Translations under genes and position numbers: made by a program | Part shown: one piece after another, positions 7,407 to 56,356 of the stretch | Position numbering within the stretch: position 1 is the stretch's first letter | Layout: the number at the start of each line of letters is the position of its first letter | The notes under the pieces: model-generated | Databases searched by the model: none | Seen by the model: only the letters and a program-made list of their open reading frames with translations | What the model was told of the DNA's origin: nothing | Assembly (NCBI GenBank): GCA_028753945.1 | Contig: JAPNXP010000011.1 | Coordinates: 496,001-560,000, forward strand | Reading direction: 5' to 3' | Length of the DNA: 64,000 nt | DNA from: Hexactinellida sp. DTS-2022 | Taxonomy: Eukaryota; Porifera; Hexactinellida

Positions 7407-8731
7407 GTTTTTTTCTCCGTGTCGCCTCCCCAGGCTAAACCATAAGTGCTAGAGCTCTGAGATTTTCAGGATAGGTGTCTGGTTGTTGATTAATGTGCAC
7501 TTCGTGGCCTGATTTTTCAATTTCGACTTGGCAAAATTTTTAACGGGACTTTTAGCTTTTTTTGTCTCATAGGAAAATAAAAGCAATAATAAGAAAAATT
7601 TTAGAATCATTAGTATCAGAAAAGTATTTTGCAACTGATAGCTCTTCACGATTTTTTAAATCCGCCCTCATTTCCTGAGAATTAGGCTCAAAGTTGCCAC
7701 AATTCACCCTTAACTTTCTAAAATAGAAATTTAATTAATATTCAATTATGCAATTATTTCGTGGTTTCGATGAATAACTACTATTTATGAATAATTCAAT
7801 TAGATTCAGTGTTATTTCGATTCAAGTTATTGTTGATATTATAATCACAATAAAGAATTCTAGTATATATGAATAATTAATTTACATTCAATAGCTATTA
7901 CTATACAAATCAATTTCTGATATCATAGTTACAATAAAGTATTATATTGTAAATGAATAATTCAATTTGATTCAATAGCTGCTACTATATAAATAGATTT
8001 CTAATACATAGTTCTATTAAAGTTTTCTCCTATATGAAAATTCAATTTCACTCAACAGTTATTCAATTTCAGAACGATTTCTGATATTCAAACAATGGAT
8101 TAATGAGATGGAATATCTATTTGTATAAATATTTGTCTATGTGCGTGTTTGGTGCCCGAATTGTATTAGAGTGATAGGGGGGGGTCTAAAACGCATATAT
8201 AATGAAAATATAAACTTAAACTCAAGATGGTCTAAGATAGAAAGAAGCATGAAATTTATCAAACGTTCCTTTGTCCCGTAACAAATTGATAAATGGGTGT
8301 AAACACCATGTGACCAGGGGCGGATCCAGGGGGCCTGGGCCCACCCTTCAAAAATGAAATTGACTGAAATTTAGCTGAAAATGACAAAATAATTAAGAAA
8401 CTTCAGCCTCAAGTTTGAATTATGGCTCATTATAAAGAAATTAGCGTTTAAAATGACTTCTGAGTGTATATAACCCAAAGAAAATCTGGGGGATTACCCC
8501 CCATACCCCCTTATAAGTTGCTCACTACGCTCGCATTATTTCTTGAGCCCCCCCTTTTCAACATGTCTGGATCTGCCAATGGTGACGTTCAAGACATGGC
8601 GAAAAAAATCCAAAATTGCAGCTGTGCGACAGCATGTTGCATTGGAGGCACTATCAATAGACCACCACCAAAATATAGTGCCACAAAAGGAACATGTGTC
8701 GGCACAGCTGCAATTTTGGATTTTTTTTTTT
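7407..8731 (-). repeat. Array module, minus copy with a 267-bp insertion
   Basis: Minus copy belonging to a slightly different subfamily: the middle section about 6600-7080 of the previous module is missing and replaced by a shortened version. It holds the TIR element 8315-8581 and ends in the hairpin at about 8603-8731. Confidence 0.8.
8315..8581. mobile_element. hAT-like MITE (CAGGGGCGGATCCAG family), GTGAC target duplication
   Basis: 267-bp element with terminal inverted repeats CAGGGGCGGATCCAG (left) and the complement of CATTGGCAGATCCAG (right). It is flanked on both sides by the 5-bp duplication GTGAC (8310-8314 and 8582-8586). The empty site is seen in another module at about 2560-2585 (complement of ACACCATGTGACGTTCATGA). 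The CAG-initial TIR suggests the hAT superfamily, but the duplication is 5 bp rather than the usual 8. Internally there are no coding remnants. Confidence 0.8.
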
Positions 8732-17782: not shown

Positions 17783-18420
17783 AGTACAGCTGCATTGACA
17801 ATGCATCACATTAGCAATTGCAATACAGCCGCATTCCCACATAGTTAGCCTTTGCAATACCTCAATACTCATCAGTATTCGCAGTATTGCAAAGACAAAG
17901 CTAGATTTCTAAAAAAGTTAAAGCAGAGCCTCTATTTATACCAAACGAACGATTGACAAGTTACCTTCAAGAACACTATAAATAGGACGAGTGTGTAAGT
18001 CAAATCAAATCAATTAAAGTCACATGTTTACTACAGTGAAAGAACTGCGGCGTCATTTGAGGGAACTTGTGTGCATTTCTCAAAGTAAGTTCATTAATTT
18101 AATTCATCAATTCTTTAAAATAATTCAATTAAAACTACTTAATTAATTTTTGACTGATAAACTAAATATGCCCATATTAGAATTAAATACCCAAGCATTT
18201 ATTCCAATTCTATTTGATGATTATATAATATATTCAGCAGGATCAAGTGTGGGGAAATGCATTTGGCATTCCCAAACTCCAGAGAGATGGCCGAAGGATA
18301 TCACATTGGATCCCGAACAAACTAAAAAAGTCTCGATTAATTGCAGTGATAACATCAATGCAGGTAATTCGTATAACAAATTTAACCACAAACAATTATT
18401 TCCTATTTGTTATACTTATT
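17783..18420. repeat. Right arm of the inverted repeat
   Basis: Reverse-complement of 16275-17010 with exon 1, intron 1 and exon 2 of the small gene. Homology stops abruptly at about 18420, where two 50-bp palindromic units and then the 21-bp minisatellite begin. Confidence 0.8.
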
Positions 18421-20352
18421 ACTGTGCCGACTATACTATAGTATAGTGGCCCAGTATTGGTCTTAGTGCTTTGGTATATTATTATTACTGTGCCGACTAT
18501 ACTATAGTATAGTGGCCCAGTATTGGAATCACTGCCTTTATTATTCGTGAAATTGGATTTCTTGTTCGTGAAATTGGATTTCTTGTTCGAGAAATTGCAT
18601 TTCTTGTTCGTGAAATTGGATTTCTTGTTCGTGAAATTGGATTTCTTGTTCGTGAAATTGGATTTCTTGTTCACGAAATTGGATTTCTTGTTCGAGAAAT
18701 TGGATTTCTTGTTCGAGAAATTGCATTTCTTGTTCGAGAAATTGGATTTCTTGTTCGTGAAATTGGATTTCTTATTCGTGAAATTGGATTTCTTGTTCGA
18801 GAAATTGGATTTCTTGTTCATGAAATTGGATTTCTTGTTCATGAAATTGGATTTCTTGTTCGTGAAATTGGATTTCTTGTTCGAGAAATTGGATTTCTTG
18901 TTCGAGAAATTGCATTTCTTGTTCGTGAAATTGGATTTCTTGTTCGAGAAATTGGATTTCTTGTTCGAGAAATTGGATTTCTTGTTTTCGAAATTGCATT
19001 TCTTGTTCGAGAAATTGGATTTCTTGTTCGTGAAATTGGATTTCTTATTCGTGAAATTGCATTTCTTGTTCGAGAAATTGGATTTCTTGTTCATGAAATT
19101 GGATTTCTTGTTCATGAAATTGGATTTCTTGTTCGTGAAATTGGATTTCTTATTCGTGAAATTGGATTTCTTGTTCGAGAAATTGCATTTCTTTTTCGAG
19201 AAATTGGATTTCTTGTTCGAGAAATTGGATTTCTTGTTTACGAAATTGCATTTCTTGTTCGAGAAATTGGATTTCTTGTTCGTGAAATTGGATTGCTTAT
19301 TCGTGAAATTGCATTTCTTGTTCGAGAAATTGGATTTCTTGTTCATGAAATTGGATTTCTTGTTCATGAAATTGGATTTCTTGTTCGTGAAATTGGATTT
19401 CTTGTTCGAGAAATTGGATTTCTTGTTCACGAAATTGCATTTCTTGTTCGAGAAATTGGATTTCTTGTTCGAGAAATTGCATTTCTTGTTCGTGAAATTG
19501 GATTTCTTGTTCGAGAAATTGGATTTCTTGTTCATGAAATTGGATTTCTTGTTCGAGAAATTGGATTTCTTGTTCGAGAAATTGCATTTCTTGTTCGTGA
19601 AATTGGATTTCTTGTTCGAGAAATTGGATTTCTTGTTCATGAAATTGGATTTCTTGTTCATGAAATTGGATTTCTTGTTCGTGAAATTGGATTTCTTGTT
19701 CGAGAAATTGCATTTCTTGTTCGAGAAATTGGATTTCTTGTTCGAGAAATTGCATTTCTTGTTCGTGAAATTGGATTCCTTGTTCACGAAATTGCATTTC
19801 TTGTTCGAGAAATTGGATTTCTTGTTCGAGAAATTGCATTTCTTGTTCGTGAAATTGGATTTCTTGTTCGAGAAATTGGATTTCTTGTTCATGAAATTGG
19901 ATTTCTTGTTCGTGAAATTGGATTTCTTGTTCGTGAAATTGCATTTCTTGTTCGAGAAATTGGATTTCTTGTTCATGAAATTGGATTTCTTGTTCGTGAA
20001 ATTGGATTTCTTGTTCGAGAAATTGGATTTCTTGTTCGTGAAATTGGATTTCTTGTTCGTGAAATTGGATTTCTTGGTCTTGAATTGGATTTCTTGTTCT
20101 TGAAATTGAATTTCTTGGTCTTGCATCGGATTCTTTGTCCTTCTAATATGTTTGCCCTGTATGCATAAAATTGCAGAGCGGAGTAGTGCAAAAGGGAGGT
20201 TTGTGCGCAGCCAACAAACTGTCCGGCTGTCTAGACAATTGTTGAAAATGTTTGCTGTATGTCCCATTCCGCCACAAGCAGAGAATACTAAAGGTGTGAA
20301 AGATGACTTTTCAACTTCAACACCGTTGTTGATATTTTCTACGCTTCTCTAG
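18024..20352 (+). CDS. Diverged second copy of the small gene, minisatellite in intron 2 (tentative)
   Basis: Exon 1 (18024-18084) and exon 2 (18241-18363) match the left-arm gene: MFTTVKELRRHLRELVCIS and a KCIWHSQTPERWPKD motif, with GTAAGT and CAG splice sites conserved. The C-terminal half of exon 2 is diverged from its sister. A third exon is possible at 20177-20352 (acceptor TTGCAG), which keeps the phase and adds 58 residues (start ERSSAKGRFVRSQQ) for a 119-residue product; that exon does not resemble the left-copy exon 3. If so, the minisatellite is intronic. A TATAAATAG box at 17973-17982 is only about 45 bp before the ATG. Could equally be a decaying copy. Confidence 0.35.
18421..18537. 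repeat. Two 50-bp palindromic units
   Basis: Two copies of the ACTGTGCCGACTATACTATA unit (minus sense) in tandem, directly before the minisatellite. They share the unit of the 1-15 kb array and the inversion-point cluster. Confidence 0.85.
18543..20110. repeat. 21-bp minisatellite, about 75 units
   Basis: Tandem unit TTGTTCGTGAAATTGGATTTC. Variation is confined mainly to two places: TTC followed by GTG, GAG, ATG or ACG, and GGAT versus GCAT. The length is a multiple of three, so five of the six frames have no stop and give repetitive reading frames up to 623 codons on the minus strand; I do not regard these as genes. Each unit contains the dyad TTCnnGAA and the inverted repeat GAAAT-TGG-ATTTC. 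Unit variants recur in blocks (an E-M-M-V order in one frame), so there is a higher-order repeat of roughly 11-13 units. The right edge degrades through GTCTTGAATTGG variants to about 20140. Confidence 0.95.
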
Positions 20353-27371: not shown

Positions 27372-29176
27372 TTCCTTCCATCTAAATGACTACTATTTGG
27401 TTTGATTCGTAATTACATACACTGTGATCATTTGATAAGAATACCATAACTGTATCTTGTATAGATACACCCCTGAGTCTAGAGAATGTTTATTACCGTT
27501 ACCACTTTCCAGATGTATTGTTTAGAGACTAAACAATCTCTATAAACGATATTACACAAATGAACTGTATTTTTTGTAATTCACTATACCTGGCATAGGT
27601 TACTAGGAGGCAAATGCCTTTAGGTGTTTGAATCTCAAATATGGTAGACACTACGTAATATGGTTAATTAAAGTTCGAGAAGCGACCTTTTTTTCGTTAG
27701 TGTTATTGGACAAGTACAGACACAGCAAAACATGTATACGTACTAAATGTAATTATTTTCTTTAAATATAAGGGCATCGGATAGACACCCAGGCATAGAG
27801 CCAACTTACCTGTTTAGTTTTTATTTGAAGAGTTTTGTAAAGTTAGTAAAGCAAAAAAAACTTTCAACTATTCTTACTTATAACTACTGAGTAACTCAAT
27901 ATTATGGTTATATTTCAATTCATTGTTATCAGATATTAGGTAATTGACTTTACTTACAATCCAACTTTTTCTGAAACTTAGTAACGGTTAGTATTAAATT
28001 CCGGTATAATAAGAATACTATTCAAAGACTTTTCAATACGCATGATATAAATTAATACGAATAGCGCAATTTGACGATCACCTGGTGTTCGTACTAATGG
28101 CCTTCTACTATATTACGTACAGTACATAGAATAGTTAAATTAATTTCAATTGATGAATAGTTTTTGTTTGCAATTTAGTCAGGAATCATTGCTATTCAAA
28201 TCGTGGAAATTATATATGGCTAACCCTTCGGTCTCGTTTAACGGCCGCTATGCGGTCTTACTCCTCACCCTTTCCTTCATATGGAGGATGTTATATAGTA
28301 CATGACATTTTCCATAGTTTTAACTTATTTAACAAGAATACCCGTAGAAAGCTAACTTCTATGTTGATTTTGAATTTTCATTAATATGTTTACCTATTTG
28401 TGTAACGGTTTCTGATCTCCCATTACATTAATACAATCTGGACAAACACACAAAGAACAATCGAGTTTAAACATGTTTACATTATGAATTGTTTAAACAA
28501 TTCATAATGTTTTGTAAAGCACTCAGTTTAAATGCAAACTCCATATGTTGTAGTCTTCAATCTTTGATTTCTGATAATATTGTTGAGGTAATATGTAGTA
28601 CTATTTTCTCATGTCATTCAGTTCTTCAGTTCTTCTACTTTGCATTGTTAATTGTGTTGTTTAAGTGCTGCATTCGGTGATAAGTGTCTAAATTATATCT
28701 TAGATCATTTAAGTTTTAATTATTTTATATCGTAAATATTATTATTTTTGAAAATACATTATTATTGAACATACATGCGGGTTTCACCAAAATAAATTAT
28801 AATTTTCCAAATTTATTTTATAATAAATGAAAATTTATTTGTTTAAAAAAGAATATTGCTTGTTCACTTATTCTAAATATGTCCTAATATCTTCTATAAT
28901 TTTCCTTGTATCAATAGAATTCTTAACTAAGATATTACTCCTATAATCATTTTAATAAGATGGGACATCACGAGCAGTTAAGGTCTGATTACAGATTACT
29001 AAATATTATTATTTTACTTTAGCAAAATACATATTACAAATATTAATAATGTAATCATTTAATTAAGGAGTTTTCTTTAGAAATATATTTTTGAAACTTA
29101 ATACGACAAGTGCAAATATTGTAGGTACAAAAGACTTAATTTTGATAGAATCAATAATTTGGTGTAACTTAATAAT
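27372..29176. other. Intergenic region
   Basis: Between the SANT gene and the seven-pass gene. Apart from the candidate RNA element it holds a decayed CTCGTTAGTACGAA-type MITE (about 27990-28112) and an inverted relative of the intron-1 hairpin and TTTACCTATT block (28200-28440). No further gene seen. Confidence 0.6.
27770..27925 (-). ncRNA. Dispersed 155-bp element with donor plus hairpin, candidate spliced-leader-type RNA
   Basis: Homologous to 56180-56331. On the minus strand both copies read CTAAACAG|GTAAGTTGGCTCT, a perfect 5' splice donor, followed within 20 bases by the stem GGGTGTC-TATCC-GATGCCC. This donor-to-hairpin block is the best-conserved part, while the sequence upstream of the donor has many indels. 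No terminal inverted repeats, no tail and no coding frame are seen. Small exon, donor and hairpin are the layout of an SL RNA. A clear Sm site was not found. On the plus strand the same block reads ACTTACCTG, as in the 5' end of U1, so a U1-like RNA or a SINE-like repeat is an alternative. Confidence 0.35.
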
Positions 29177-46720: not shown

Positions 46721-47552
46721 TTTTATTATTTGAAATATTTCTGGTGATAATATATTTTTTAAACAATTAATTATTATTTCTACTAAGGTACCGTATTTAT
46801 TATTTACCCCAAATTTACCCTCGAATTTTTTTGGAATCGAAAAACTATATTTAGATGGATTTAGGATTTTAATGCTTCTTAGGGATCCGAAATTTCCTAA
46901 ATCCATGTAATTACACTTCAGTTAACACTAATGTTATTACTTTTATCATAGTATAATCATACAAATGCCTTTTATTGATTTGCAGGGGCCTTATTCACCA
47001 ACACTATTAAATTCAACAAGTTTAATTAACACAACTGTATCTCATCTACCTTACGCTACCTAATAGCTAATGTCGTAACCATTCTGCCATCAATGCTTGT
47101 TCCTACCTAACTTGTATGAGTTGGAATTGTTGCACTTAGAAGACGCACAGTGGTATTATGATATCCCCAGCAGTTTCGAGAATTATTATTAATTAAACCT
47201 ATAAATTTAGGCGCTAATGCTTTACCCGCGTGAAATTCTGACAATGTGTAAATTGAATTTCACTGTGCCGATTACTACAGTATTTCCCCGAATAAGCGCC
47301 GGGTGAAAAATGGCATTTGTATGATATAATTATTACCATTAGTTGATAACTGAAGTGTAGTTATATTGATTAGTAAATTTCTGTATGTTTACTGTCGCTG
47401 AGAACCGTTAGATTTCCTGGATTTTTTTTCAAAAAATTCTATGTTAGTCATTAAAAAATCTAAAATTCAAGCTGTGCCAAAAAGCACTTATTCGTGGAAA
47501 TACAGACTTCTAATTTATTCTATTTATAAGTTTGAATCGCCTAGCCATTTCT
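46721..47552. other. Intergenic region
   Basis: AT-rich. Contains half a CGAATAAGCGCC-type MITE end (47274-47310) and a fragment of the hairpin MITE (47453-47480, AAATCTAAAATTCAAGCTGT) about 75 bp before the EGF gene. No gene seen. Confidence 0.6.
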
Positions 47553-50500
47553 ATGCACCAATCAATTCCCTTGCTTCTGCTCCTATTATTCCCTATTACA
47601 AATGCATTCACTGCAGTATGTGGAGCCGATTGCATTTGCGAACCGAGCTACATAACATGTAGGGGATCTACTATAACAGAAGTTCCAACTAACTTAACTG
47701 GTGTTAACCTGGGTAATATTCTCAATTTCTATTGCAGTACGTGTGATATTGGAACTCTGAAGGCGAATTCCTTTGCAGGATACACGTCGTTATTGTATAT
47801 TTCAATACAGTATTCAGGTTTAATTGATATTGAACCAGATGCATTTGCAGATGTAGCGAATCAATTAACTTATCTAGATTTATCAGATAATGCGATTGTG
47901 ACAATAAAATCGTTTTATTTCACGGGATTAAGTTCGGTTAATACCTTGGAACTACAATCAAATTTAATCTCAGAATTAGAAGATGGTTCTTTCGATGATT
48001 TAACTTCTTTAGCTAATCTCCTTATTGGTAATAACAAACTTTCCTATCTTCCTGATTCAATCTTTTCTACCACGGCTATTACACAATTCGATATCACCAA
48101 CAATTATTTATACCAACTAACAAACAAACCATTTCCTACAGGCGTTACTTTCACAACTTTATATTTTAGTAACAATAATATTGCAAGAATAAACTCAAAT
48201 GTTTCCACTATTTTCACAAACGCAGGTCGAGTTTTATTGAATGACAATCCTATAATTTGCGATTGTTATATTCTACATTTAAAAGCAGCTATTATAGCTG
48301 ATCCATCCACGTATGGCGACACAAGTTTCTCTGCTACAAAGTGTGGTTATCCGGCTACTTTAGACGGTACCAAAATAAGCGAAGCTAATATATTTTCGGG
48401 TGGTTGTTTCGATTTGTGTCTCAACATAGATTGTGACATTAATGCCACTTGTACCGTAGAATCTGAATGGCCAGTTTGTACTTGTAATTCTGGGTTTGTT
48501 GGTAATGGATTCGTATGCACTGATCTTTGTAACGGATGTTTTGGTGTCGCATTTTGTGCCTACAATTCGTCTTCTATGAATTCATCTTGTGTTTGTCCTT
48601 TGGGTTACCAACTCGATAATACAGGAAAAAACTGCTCAGAATTAAACGAATGTATTACGAACCCTTGTCCCATTAATTCTACTTGTATGGATTTAATCGC
48701 AGACTTTAATTGTGAATGCAACGCTGGATATTCATTGGTTACTAATCCGAGTTTGGATTGTGTTGATATTGATGAGTGTAGTGATTCCATGTTGTATAAC
48801 TGTAGTTATAATTCCGAATGTGTGAATACTCATGGTGCATACTTATGTGAATGTAACTTTGGTTATGAAATGGTTGGTATGGAATGTACGGATATAAACG
48901 AGTGTCTAAATGTGTCACTTTATGACTGTCAGTTTGATTCCACTTGTCAGAATATCCCTAGTAACTACACTTGTGAATGCAATGTTGGATTCTATGAAAG
49001 TTCCCCCAATTTATGTGCGGATTTTGATGAGTGTTCCAACATAACAATCTGTTCTAGCAACTCACACTGTAATAACACTATAGGGTCATACTTTTGTGAA
49101 TGTAACCTTGGTTATGAGGACAGCAGTGGGGAATGCATTGACATAAATGAGTGTCTAGACTTGTCAATTTATGACTGTCAGCCAAACTCCACTTGTCAGA
49201 ATTTAATTGGCAATTATACCTGTGAATGTAACACTGGATTGTTTGAAAGTTCCCCCCATTTTTGTGGCGATTTTAACGAGTGTTCATTCAATGCCACAAT
49301 TTGTTCTGACAACTCACATTGTAATAACACTATAGGGTCATACATCTGTGAATGTGATTCTGGTTACGAAGACGGTACATTGGAATGTACGGATATAAAC
49401 GAGTGTCTAAATATGGCACTGTTTGACTGCCAATCTGACTCCACTTGTCGGAATTTAGTTGGTAATTACACTTGTGAATGCAATACCGGATTTGTAGAGA
49501 ATTCCCCCCAAATCTGTGACGACATAAATGAGTGTATTTCCACTCCTAACATTTGTCCCAATAATAACATCACACACTGTAACAACACCATAGGTTCCTA
49601 TTCATGTTCCTGTTTACCTGGATTCACTCTTGACTCCCCTCACTCCTGTGAAGATATTGACGAGTGCACTGGCACCAACTACTGTGAGCATAACTGCACT
49701 AACACAATAGGTTCCTATTCATGTTCCTGTTTACCTGGATTCACTCTTGATCCCCCTCATTCCTGTGAAGATATTGACGAGTGCACTGGCACCAACTACT
49801 GTGAACATAACTGCACTAACACAGTAGGTTCCTATTCATGTTCCTGTTTACCTGGATTCACTCTTGACCCCCCTCACTCCTGTGAAGATATTGACGAGTG
49901 CACTGGCACCAACTACTGTGAGCATAACTGCACTAACACAGTAGGTTCCTATTCATGTTCCTGTTTACCTGGATTCACTCTTGACCCCCCTCACTCCTGT
50001 GAAGATATTGACGAGTGCACTGGCACCAACTACTGTGAACATAACTGCACTAACACAATAGGTTCCTATTCGTGTTCCTGTTTACCAGGATTCACTCTTG
50101 ACCCCCCTCACTCCTGTGAAGATATTGACGAGTGCACTGGCACCAACTACTGTGAGCATAACTGTACTAACACAGTAGGTTCCTATACATGTTCCTGTTT
50201 ACCTGGATTCACTCTTGACCCCCCTCACTCCTGTGAAGATATTGACGAGTGCACTGGCACCAACTACTGTGAACATAACTGCACTAACACCATAGGTTCC
50301 TATTCGTGTTCCTGTTTACCAGGATTCACTCTTGACCCCCCTCACTCCTGTGAAGATATTGACGAGTGCACTGGCACCAACTACTGTGAACATAACTGCA
50401 CTAACACAATAGGTTCCTATTCGTGTTCCTGTTTACCTGGATTCACTCTTGACCCCCCTCACTCCTGTGAAGATATTGACGAGTGCACTGGAACCAACTA

Positions 50501-51485
50501 CTGTGAGCATAACTGTACTAACACAGTAGGTTCCTATTCATGTTCCTGTTTACCTGGATTCACTCTTGACCCCCCTCACTCCTGTGAAGATATTGACGAG
50601 TGCACTGGCACCAACTACTGTGAGCATAACTGCACTAACACAGTAGGTTCCTATTCATGTTCCTGTTTACCTGGATTCACTCTTGACCCCCCTCACTCTT
50701 GTGAAGATATTGACGAGTGCACTGGCACCAACTACTGTGAGCATAACTGTACTAACACCATAGGTTCCTATTCATGTTCCTGTTTACCTGGATTCACTCT
50801 TAACCCCCCTCACTCCTGTGAAGATATTAACGAGTGCACTGGCACCAACTACTGTGAACATAACTGCACTAACACAGTAGGTTCCTATTCATGTTCCTGT
50901 TTACCTGGATTCACTCTTGACCCCCCTCACTCCTGTGAAGATATTGACGAGTGCACTGGCACCAACTACTGTGAACATAACTGCACTAACACCATAGGTT
51001 CCTATTCGTGTTCCTGTTTACCTGGATTCACTCTTGACCCCCCTCACTCCTGTGAAGATATTGACGAGTGCACTGGAACCAACTACTGTGAGCATAACTG
51101 TACTAACACCATAGGTTCCTATTCATGTTCCTGTTTACCTGGATTCACTCTTGACCCCCCTCACTCCTGTGAAGATATTAACGAGTGCACTGGAACCAAC
51201 TACTGTGAGCATAACTGCACTAACACAGTAGGTTCCTATTCATGTTCCTGTTTACCTGGATTCACTCTTGACCCCCCTCACTCCTGTGAAGATATTGACG
51301 AGTGCACTGGCACCAACTACTGTGAGCATAACTGCACTAACACAGTAGGTTCCTATACATGTTCCTGTTTACCTGGATTCACTATACTACCTGGTTTACT
51401 CCCCTGTATCTCTTCCGGAGTAAGTCAGCTTACTTATTCGATACCTTTCGGTATATTCTGTTTATTGCTTTTCTCACTCCTTTAG
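47553..51485 (+). CDS. LRR plus 25-EGF surface protein, single exon, 1310 residues
   Basis: Secreted or membrane-anchored adhesion/receptor-type protein. The first ATG is at 47553; upstream TTG in the same frame was rejected. Signal peptide MHQSIPLLLLLLFPITNA. A cysteine-rich LRR N-cap (CGADCICEPSYITC) is followed by about six leucine-rich repeats (NQLTYLDLSDNAI; VNTLELQSNLISEL) and an LRR C-cap (NDNPIICDCYILHL). Then come about ten diverged EGF domains, several calcium-binding (DIDEC / DINEC), and 15 nearly identical 39-residue calcium-binding EGFs (49653-51382; unit DIDECTGTNYCEHNCTNT, then GSYSCSCLPGF). Each unit keeps an NCT sequon and the NTxGSYxC hydroxylation context. The end is a short hydrophobic stretch (IPFGIFCLLLFSLL), more like a GPI-anchor signal than a full membrane helix with a tail. 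Confidence 0.9.
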   Translation: MHQSIPLLLLLLFPITNAFTAVCGADCICEPSYITCRGSTITEVPTNLTGVNLGNILNFYCSTCDIGTLKANSFAGYTSLLYISIQYSGLIDIEPDAFADVANQLTYLDLSDNAIVTIKSFYFTGLSSVNTLELQSNLISELEDGSFDDLTSLANLLIGNNKLSYLPDSIFSTTAITQFDITNNYLYQLTNKPFPTGVTFTTLYFSNNNIARINSNVSTIFTNAGRVLLNDNPIICDCYILHLKAAIIADPSTYGDTSFSATKCGYPATLDGTKISEANIFSGGCFDLCLNIDCDINATCTVESEWPVCTCNSGFVGNGFVCTDLCNGCFGVAFCAYNSSSMNSSCVCPLGYQLDNTGKNCSELNECITNPCPINSTCMDLIADFNCECNAGYSLVTNPSLDCVDIDECSDSMLYNCSYNSECVNTHGAYLCECNFGYEMVGMECTDINECLNVSLYDCQFDSTCQNIPSNYTCECNVGFYESSPNLCADFDECSNITICSSNSHCNNTIGSYFCECNLGYEDSSGECIDINECLDLSIYDCQPNSTCQNLIGNYTCECNTGLFESSPHFCGDFNECSFNATICSDNSHCNNTIGSYICECDSGYEDGTLECTDINECLNMALFDCQSDSTCRNLVGNYTCECNTGFVENSPQICDDINECISTPNICPNNNITHCNNTIGSYSCSCLPGFTLDSPHSCEDIDECTGTNYCEHNCTNTIGSYSCSCLPGFTLDPPHSCEDIDECTGTNYCEHNCTNTVGSYSCSCLPGFTLDPPHSCEDIDECTGTNYCEHNCTNTVGSYSCSCLPGFTLDPPHSCEDIDECTGTNYCEHNCTNTIGSYSCSCLPGFTLDPPHSCEDIDECTGTNYCEHNCTNTVGSYTCSCLPGFTLDPPHSCEDIDECTGTNYCEHNCTNTIGSYSCSCLPGFTLDPPHSCEDIDECTGTNYCEHNCTNTIGSYSCSCLPGFTLDPPHSCEDIDECTGTNYCEHNCTNTVGSYSCSCLPGFTLDPPHSCEDIDECTGTNYCEHNCTNTVGSYSCSCLPGFTLDPPHSCEDIDECTGTNYCEHNCTNTIGSYSCSCLPGFTLNPPHSCEDINECTGTNYCEHNCTNTVGSYSCSCLPGFTLDPPHSCEDIDECTGTNYCEHNCTNTIGSYSCSCLPGFTLDPPHSCEDIDECTGTNYCEHNCTNTIGSYSCSCLPGFTLDPPHSCEDINECTGTNYCEHNCTNTVGSYSCSCLPGFTLDPPHSCEDIDECTGTNYCEHNCTNTVGSYTCSCLPGFTILPGLLPCISSGVSQLTYSIPFGIFCLLLFSLL
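49653..51382 (+). repeat. 117-bp tandem array encoding 15 calcium-binding EGFs
   Basis: Fifteen units in frame within the LRR-EGF gene; the last diverges after LPGFT. Differences are few: mainly TI/TV before GSY, S/T before C, and DIDE/DINE. Variants are scattered rather than graded, as expected for unequal exchange and gene conversion. The ten EGFs upstream are far more diverged, and two of them form an older duplicated pair (INECL... / F-ECS...). Confidence 0.95.
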
Positions 51486-56179: not shown

Positions 56180-56331
56180 ATAAGGGCATCGGATAGACAC
56201 CCAAGGCATAGAGCCAACTTACCTGTTTAGTTTTATTGAAGTTTGTGTAAAGTTTAAGTAAAGCAAAATTTATTTCCAACTATTCTTACTTATAACTACT
56301 GAGTAACTCAATATTGTGGTTCTATTATAAT
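56180..56331 (-). ncRNA. Second copy of the donor-plus-hairpin element
   Basis: Partner of 27770-27925. On the minus strand: CTAAACAG|GTAAGTTGGCTCT (last exon base 56223), then the same GGGTGTC-TATCC-GATGCCC stem. The first 45 bp after the donor differ from the other copy by a single T insertion, whereas the other side has several indels. See the first copy for interpretation. Confidence 0.35.
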
Positions 56332-56356
56332 TCATGGTTTTTAGTTAATGGATGTA

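Follow-up and report, generated by a model that had tools for sequence, protein, structure and literature searches.

Candidate spliced-leader RNA genes in a glass sponge genome and their leader exons at the 5' ends of retrotransposons

Spliced-leader (SL) trans-splicing in glass sponges was reportedly described by Douris et al. in 2010. Its occurrence in hexactinellid sponges, which was brought up when this DNA was read from its letters alone (hereafter the sequence-only reading), is indeed mentioned in print (PMC7986045). For the glass sponge Aphrocallistes vastus, the available text of PMC10282587 gives unmapped 5' ends of 41-45 bp (peak 44) on long cDNA reads, a leader motif of about 37 bp on 4% of the long reads, and many leader variants that are ascribed to read errors; in that text, no SL RNA genes, promoters or leader-tipped retroelements are described. 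A text search of the Oopsacas minuta genome paper turned up no mention of the process. Farther away, and as far as the available parts of the cited papers go, the SL RNAs of parasitic flatworms have no exact match to the canonical Sm motif and hold their donor in a hairpin, and at 597 discarded loci parts of leaders lie close to mobile elements, for the most part LTR and LINE; in the authors' words such loci "may" derive from retrotransposons that received the SL (PMC12582326). Dinoflagellate retrogenes carry leader relicts that were copied back at the 5' ends of messages and are stacked after several rounds, all mRNAs bearing one 22-nt leader (PMC6050394), and the SL RNA of Ciona has a non-standard Sm-like word, AGCUUUGG, close behind the donor, with a single 16-nt leader sequence and at least 670 gene copies (PMC7986045).

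Published work thus already covers SL trans-splicing in glass sponges as well as retroelements with leaders in flatworms, and the kind of system treated here is known. The likeness to A. vastus is one of length, the read ends there matching exons of 40-45 nt here, whereas its shorter motif and its variants put down to read errors, as given in the text available, differ from the 22 exon variants that we find in genes. With flatworms the sponge shares a non-canonical Sm motif and partial leaders at mobile elements, but flatworm leaders measure 31-36 bp and the exon here has no AUG at its end; the matching of individual insertions of one element to different SL genes gives direct support to the flatworm suggestion. 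As in dinoflagellates, the leader has been copied back into the genome and can be stacked, although only one locus with two leaders was seen here (L036) and a variety of exons stands against their one leader. Ciona likewise has a short RNA with a non-standard Sm-like word near the donor, but its single, far shorter leader and its gene number set it apart from the family described here. By text search, no paper was found that pairs the word CTAAACAG with "spliced leader".

Two gene copies and a genome-wide family

The window, that is the whole stretch of 64,000 nucleotides analysed here, holds two minus-strand units at 27770-27925 (copy 1) and about 56182-56335 (copy 2), each of which reads from 5' to 3' as an ACC element at -56, TATAAG near -30, an A/T-rich exon of 42-43 nt, the donor GTAAGTTGG, a mini-hairpin and a 3' hairpin (Table 1). 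The donor and the 7-bp stem GGGTGTC/GATGCCC named by the sequence-only reading are present in both. Its count of two copies is too low, as the donor-block pattern marks 27 loci in the genome, and its picture of a nearly invariant donor-hairpin block with the rest drifted is right in part as to the drift, whereas the exon ends, the upstream element and the spacing of that element are kept as well.

Table 1. Parts of the two candidate SL RNA genes in the window.
Feature	Window positions	Strand	Basis or remark
SL exon, copy 1 (43 nt, GCTTTAC...CTAAACAG)	27810..27852	-	from 2nd base 42/42 identical to leader on retrotransposons L033 and L034/L086
Splice donor GTAAGTTGG, copy 1, opens SL intron part	27801..27809	-	sequence
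GGC-UCUAU-GCC mini-hairpin, copy 1; sole candidate position of a degenerate Sm site	27792..27802	-	GGC/GCC kept in 25/25 aligned genes
3' hairpin GGGTGTC-TATCC-GATGCCC, copy 1	27772..27790	-	sequence
Upstream element TAACCATAATATTG, copy 1 (PSE-like, ACC at -56)	27897..27910	-	weight matrix
TTATAAG, copy 1, TATA-like, about -31 to -25	27877..27883	-	read by eye
SL exon, copy 2 (42 nt)	56223..56264	-	sequence
Splice donor GTAAGTTGG, copy 2	56214..56222	-	sequence
GGC-UCUAU-GCC mini-hairpin, copy 2	56205..56215	-	sequence
3' hairpin, copy 2	56184..56202	-	sequence
PSE-like element GAACCACAATATTG, copy 2 (ACC at -56)	56309..56322	-	weight matrix

The two copies are not a chance repeat: under a covariance model they score 102.8 and 101.1 bits, against 16.9 for the runner-up site in the window, although their own match follows by construction, both being among the 25 family members from which the model was built. 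Rfam at its gathering scores gave no match in the whole window and, on five gene loci, just two sub-threshold matches, both in L023 and away from the RNA; ARAGORN found no tRNA in the window. Elsewhere in the window, a long minus-strand frame (18396-20267) starts with what by eye resembles the C-terminal part of a retrotransposon treated below (L034) and continues as a minisatellite (repeated SNFxNKK), with several readings open, and an open frame of 1317 codons (47532-51485) holds, by eye, leucine-rich repeats together with numerous EGF-like repeats that are nearly identical, which fits an animal genome.

In the genome (112,398,167 bases, 18 contigs), a 156-base query gave at least 36 BLAST matches. 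Exon and intron part are present together at 28 of these loci, the donor word in 27 of them and absent from the degenerate L044. The pattern CAGGTAAGTTGG..GCCT..GG (reversed-pattern control: 0) returned 27 distinct loci (34 rows, seven loci twice), the same 27 as were picked out of the BLAST matches; as pattern and picking both demand the exact word CAGGTAAGTTGG, genes with an altered donor would escape and 27 is to be read as "at least". An 18-base word gave eight further matches that have two mismatches; one of them is a gene among the 27, and the others stay within the number given by the control (12). The genes have 22 distinct exons, all ending in CAG at their 3' end; ten lie within 300 kb around the window, and there are loose groups on contigs 2, 4, 5 and 16 and singles on contigs 1, 5 and 8. 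In the alignment of 25 genes, from which L044 and two genes lacking the 3' hairpin (L020, L043) were left out, the donor is identical throughout, the genes having been chosen by this word, and the block conserved across the family stops about 45 nt past it. One SL gene is split between L029 (C5:945111-945191) and L035 (C5:947913-947966), a gap of 2.7 kb separating its promoter part from its RNA part; by eye, the break sequences are reverse complements of each other, and a DNA transposon therefore seems to have inserted between the parts.

Several dispersed copies, some of them cut or interrupted (L020, L043, L029/L035), could also be expected of a SINE-like or MITE-like repeat in which a donor-like word occurs by chance. 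Yet 112 Mb hold only 27 block-bearing genes and, instead of hundreds of randomly diverged SINE-like copies, 27 genes with the exact donor and one degenerate copy were found; together with the exon-only copies described below, which break off at the donor boundary, where different sequences take over, this leaves such a repeat almost no credibility. The window copies are almost certainly SL RNA genes and belong to a family that numbers at least 27 in this genome.

RNA fold, Sm site and promoter

The motif GTAAGTTGGC-N5/6-GCC fits 26 of the 27 genes, and a 3' hairpin of 5-7 bp is possible in 25, other sequence starting before the hairpin in L020 and L043. Pairing of AACUU in the exon with AAGUU at the donor occurs in five of five minimum-energy folds and in one of five centroids. 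The five single folds are only mildly better than their shuffles (z -0.5 to -2.1), and none of the nine pairs of the consensus fold shows two-sided changes in the 25-gene alignment, both of which tell against an SL RNA. The weak point conceded by the sequence-only reading, the missing Sm site, is confirmed, with no canonical site (RAU4-6GR) in that alignment. The loop between GGC and GCC reads UCUAU, UUUAU, UCUUU or UCUAA (UUUUUU in L029, UUCUUU in L038) and sits where an Sm site is expected, before the last hairpin; U1, U4 and U5 of the same genome have AAUUUUU and U2 has a U-run. We suggest, with little confidence, that the GGC-UCUAU-GCC loop is a degenerate Sm site. Lack of a canonical site would not exclude an SL RNA, because those of flatworms and Ciona deviate too.

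A PSE-like element lies at -54 to -58 in 26 of the 27 SL genes. The exception is L029, whose promoter part is displaced by the insertion and which was left out of the weight matrix made from the other 26 (10 distinct sites). When applied to snRNA genes located with Rfam models (two for U1, two for U2, one each for U4 and U5), the matrix has its best site at -56 in U1, -56 in U2 and -57 in U5, an equally good site at -60 to -52 being found in 0.02-0.06% of up to 5000 random windows; in U4 the best site is at -21, with a second one, ACCACA, at -58. TATAAG or TATAA stands at a similar place in most copies (by eye, uncounted), and words like AAAAGAGA past the last hairpin of several SL genes, also seen by eye, recall U1, U2 and U5, most genes of the window cluster being without them. 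The SL genes thus carry a predicted promoter of snRNA type. The two U1 genes form a head-to-head pair (L045/L046, C7:726263-727447) with the same 90 bases upstream.

Leader exons at the ends of retrotransposons

Among the BLAST matches, six end where the exon ends, at query position 116; a further exon-only copy (L039) ends at 119. An exact exon pattern occurs at 22 places (control 0), 13 of which run into GTAAGTTGG and are genes while 9 run straight into other sequence; as this pattern fixes the exon ends by itself, the boundary is independently supported by the BLAST end points. The sequences that follow the nine exon-only copies are of seven kinds, or maybe six, the 5' ends of L034 and L039 being alike over a short stretch past the leader. 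Downstream of the leader and on the same strand, Pfam recognises an endonuclease over the cut-off in L033, L039 and L078 and a reverse transcriptase over the cut-off in L033, L034, L036 and L042; sub-threshold matches point to an endonuclease in L036 and to PHD fingers in L040 and L042. From the leader to the first tested frame there are 78 bases in L033, 20 in L040 and 0.8-1.4 kb in L034, L036, L039, L042 and L078; in L034 another open frame fills the gap, and in the others leader and frame presumably form parts of the same element. L041 and L033 are related at 90-92%. Near the leader of L077 there is no recognisable frame, and in a search for its parent the other 39 matches listed start at query base 85 or later, in a common repeat. 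Among four matches to the PHD-type element, searched for a leaderless copy, three keep the 5' end and all three have a leader.

L033 is flanked by identical direct repeats of 143 bases, with two bases between repeat and leader; the repeats (L033:3834-3976 and 7566-7708) are a target-site duplication, and the 3' end is rich in TTTTC. For a non-LTR retrotransposon, a target-site duplication of 143 bases is long. By eye, an extra G precedes the leader in four (L033, L039, L041, L042) of the eight exon-only copies that keep their 5' end whole, as might be left by a copied cap.

Template jumps of LINEs onto small nuclear RNAs are known, and this precedent raises the alternative that the exon was gained by a reverse transcriptase switching template onto the SL RNA rather than by splicing. 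Such a jump should begin at varying points of the SL RNA, frequently close to its 3' end, and should retain intron sequence, whereas none of the nine exon-only copies continues into GTAAGTTGG; with the shared and AG-bound junctions reported below, we hold template switching to be very improbable.

The leaders can be traced to individual SL genes. Those of L033 and L034 equal the exon of copy 1 with 0 edits over 42 bases, the next gene being 3 edits off, and behind the leader L033 and L034 have no DNA similarity among the matches listed. One edit separates the L036 leader from the copy 1 exon, the leader of L040, L041 and L042 from L010/L013/L016, and that of L077 from L027; L039 and L078 are 3 and 4 edits from their nearest gene, and the leader of L079 is only partly gene-like. 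No leader copy with the exact exon of copy 2 was seen.

Different insertions of one element could be compared in two families. The first 300 bases of the L034 element gave four matches that are 96-99% identical over 1.8 kb: L086 bears the copy 1 exon (42/42), L087 the exon of L022 (41/42), L088 that of L023 (42/43) and L089 a decayed leader, and in L086-L088 the junction falls on the identical base of the element, a shared position that argues against template switching. A search with the L041 element gave 15 matches, including L041 and L033, of which four start inside the element; the 11 copies whose 5' ends were read comprise L033, L041 and nine others, read in short stretches. Leader-like sequence precedes the junction in 9 of the 11, with a score that at most 3 of 1500 random windows taken from the 64-kb stretch reach, the junctions of L095 and L097 having been placed by hand in the scoring; in L091 and L098 the leader score is no better than chance. 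Four gene types are clear in this family (L009; L010/L013/L016; L022; L025/L026/L043), and L092, L093, L095, L096 and L097 give ties or weaker gene matches. In L095 the leader is joined ten bases further in and directly follows another AG, which is what the use of a second splice acceptor would give and speaks against template switching. L036 carries two leaders in tandem (L036:3999-4193); the outer differs from copy 1 by one edit, the inner agrees with L024 at 39 of 43 bases, and the pair records two rounds of trans-splicing and insertion. Ahead of the leaders, the flanks of 15 copies of both families (151-400 bases each) have nothing in common beyond chance (best E 0.052).

As the genomic DNA shows, different putative SL genes served the same acceptor on one retroelement, and the candidate leader exon was joined at its donor boundary to several different retrotransposon messages. 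Different leaders at one junction in one element point to trans-splicing followed by reverse transcription. An ordinary cis-spliced first exon of a protein-coding family, whose mature messages were copied back, would account equally for exon, donor and promoter-like element, but its conserved block would not be expected to end about 45 nt past the donor, and from fixed loci the same exon on different elements and different exons on one element are impossible, so that we give this explanation virtually no weight. The pattern likewise contradicts a SINE- or MITE-like repeat, and neither one captured exon that was inherited, nor template switching, nor cis-splicing produces it, which argues for trans-splicing of different SL RNAs. 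The repeat, template switching and the cis-spliced first exon were all rejected. The leader exons at the 5' ends of non-LTR retrotransposons are, in all likelihood, a fossil record of trans-splicing onto messages. What the sequence-only reading had proposed to look for, unrelated messages that begin with the exon, is accordingly found in fossil form, on retrotransposon insertions in genomic DNA, and its proposal of an SL RNA gains support from both the exact-donor family and the exon joined at the donor boundary.

A proposed route and its meaning

We propose that an SL gene would be transcribed from its snRNA-type promoter into a short RNA of roughly 85-95 nt, in which AACUU of the exon may pair with AAGUU of the donor and so hold the donor in the manner of U1 snRNA, the 3' hairpin would form the end and a degenerate Sm site may lie within the GGC-UCUAU-GCC loop. 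The spliceosome would then join the 5' exon of 40-45 nt, via the donor CAG/GTAAGT, to AG acceptors of other RNAs, and where a leader-tipped retrotransposon message is reverse transcribed the leader would be kept in the genome. Host messages presumably receive the leader as well; in the genomic DNA no leader-bearing host gene was found.

The tip of the retrotransposon might itself be replaceable, the AG of a copied leader acting as a new 3' acceptor so that a fresh leader, from whichever SL gene is active, would be swapped in at each round of transcription. We regard this as conceivable but rather unlikely. In its favour, the 15 flanks in the L034 and L033 families have nothing in common, so that no shared element sequence bringing its own acceptor came to light there, but it is made less likely by the branch-point-like TACTAAC, which is present in just 4 of the 27 gene exons, and the stacked leaders of L036 speak against it, as replacement cannot have been the sole outcome.

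No published match between individual insertions of one element and different SL genes was found, in literature represented mostly by titles and the openings of abstracts. Whether SL trans-splicing is ancient in animals or has had many origins is an open question, in which early-branching animals, of which this may be one, weigh heavily. With SL genes available from DNA, complete with a promoter-like element, 22 variants of the exon and evidence that they were used, relatives can be searched gene by gene, and the tips of retroelements offer a way to show trans-splicing, and which SL genes were active, in a genome without RNA data.
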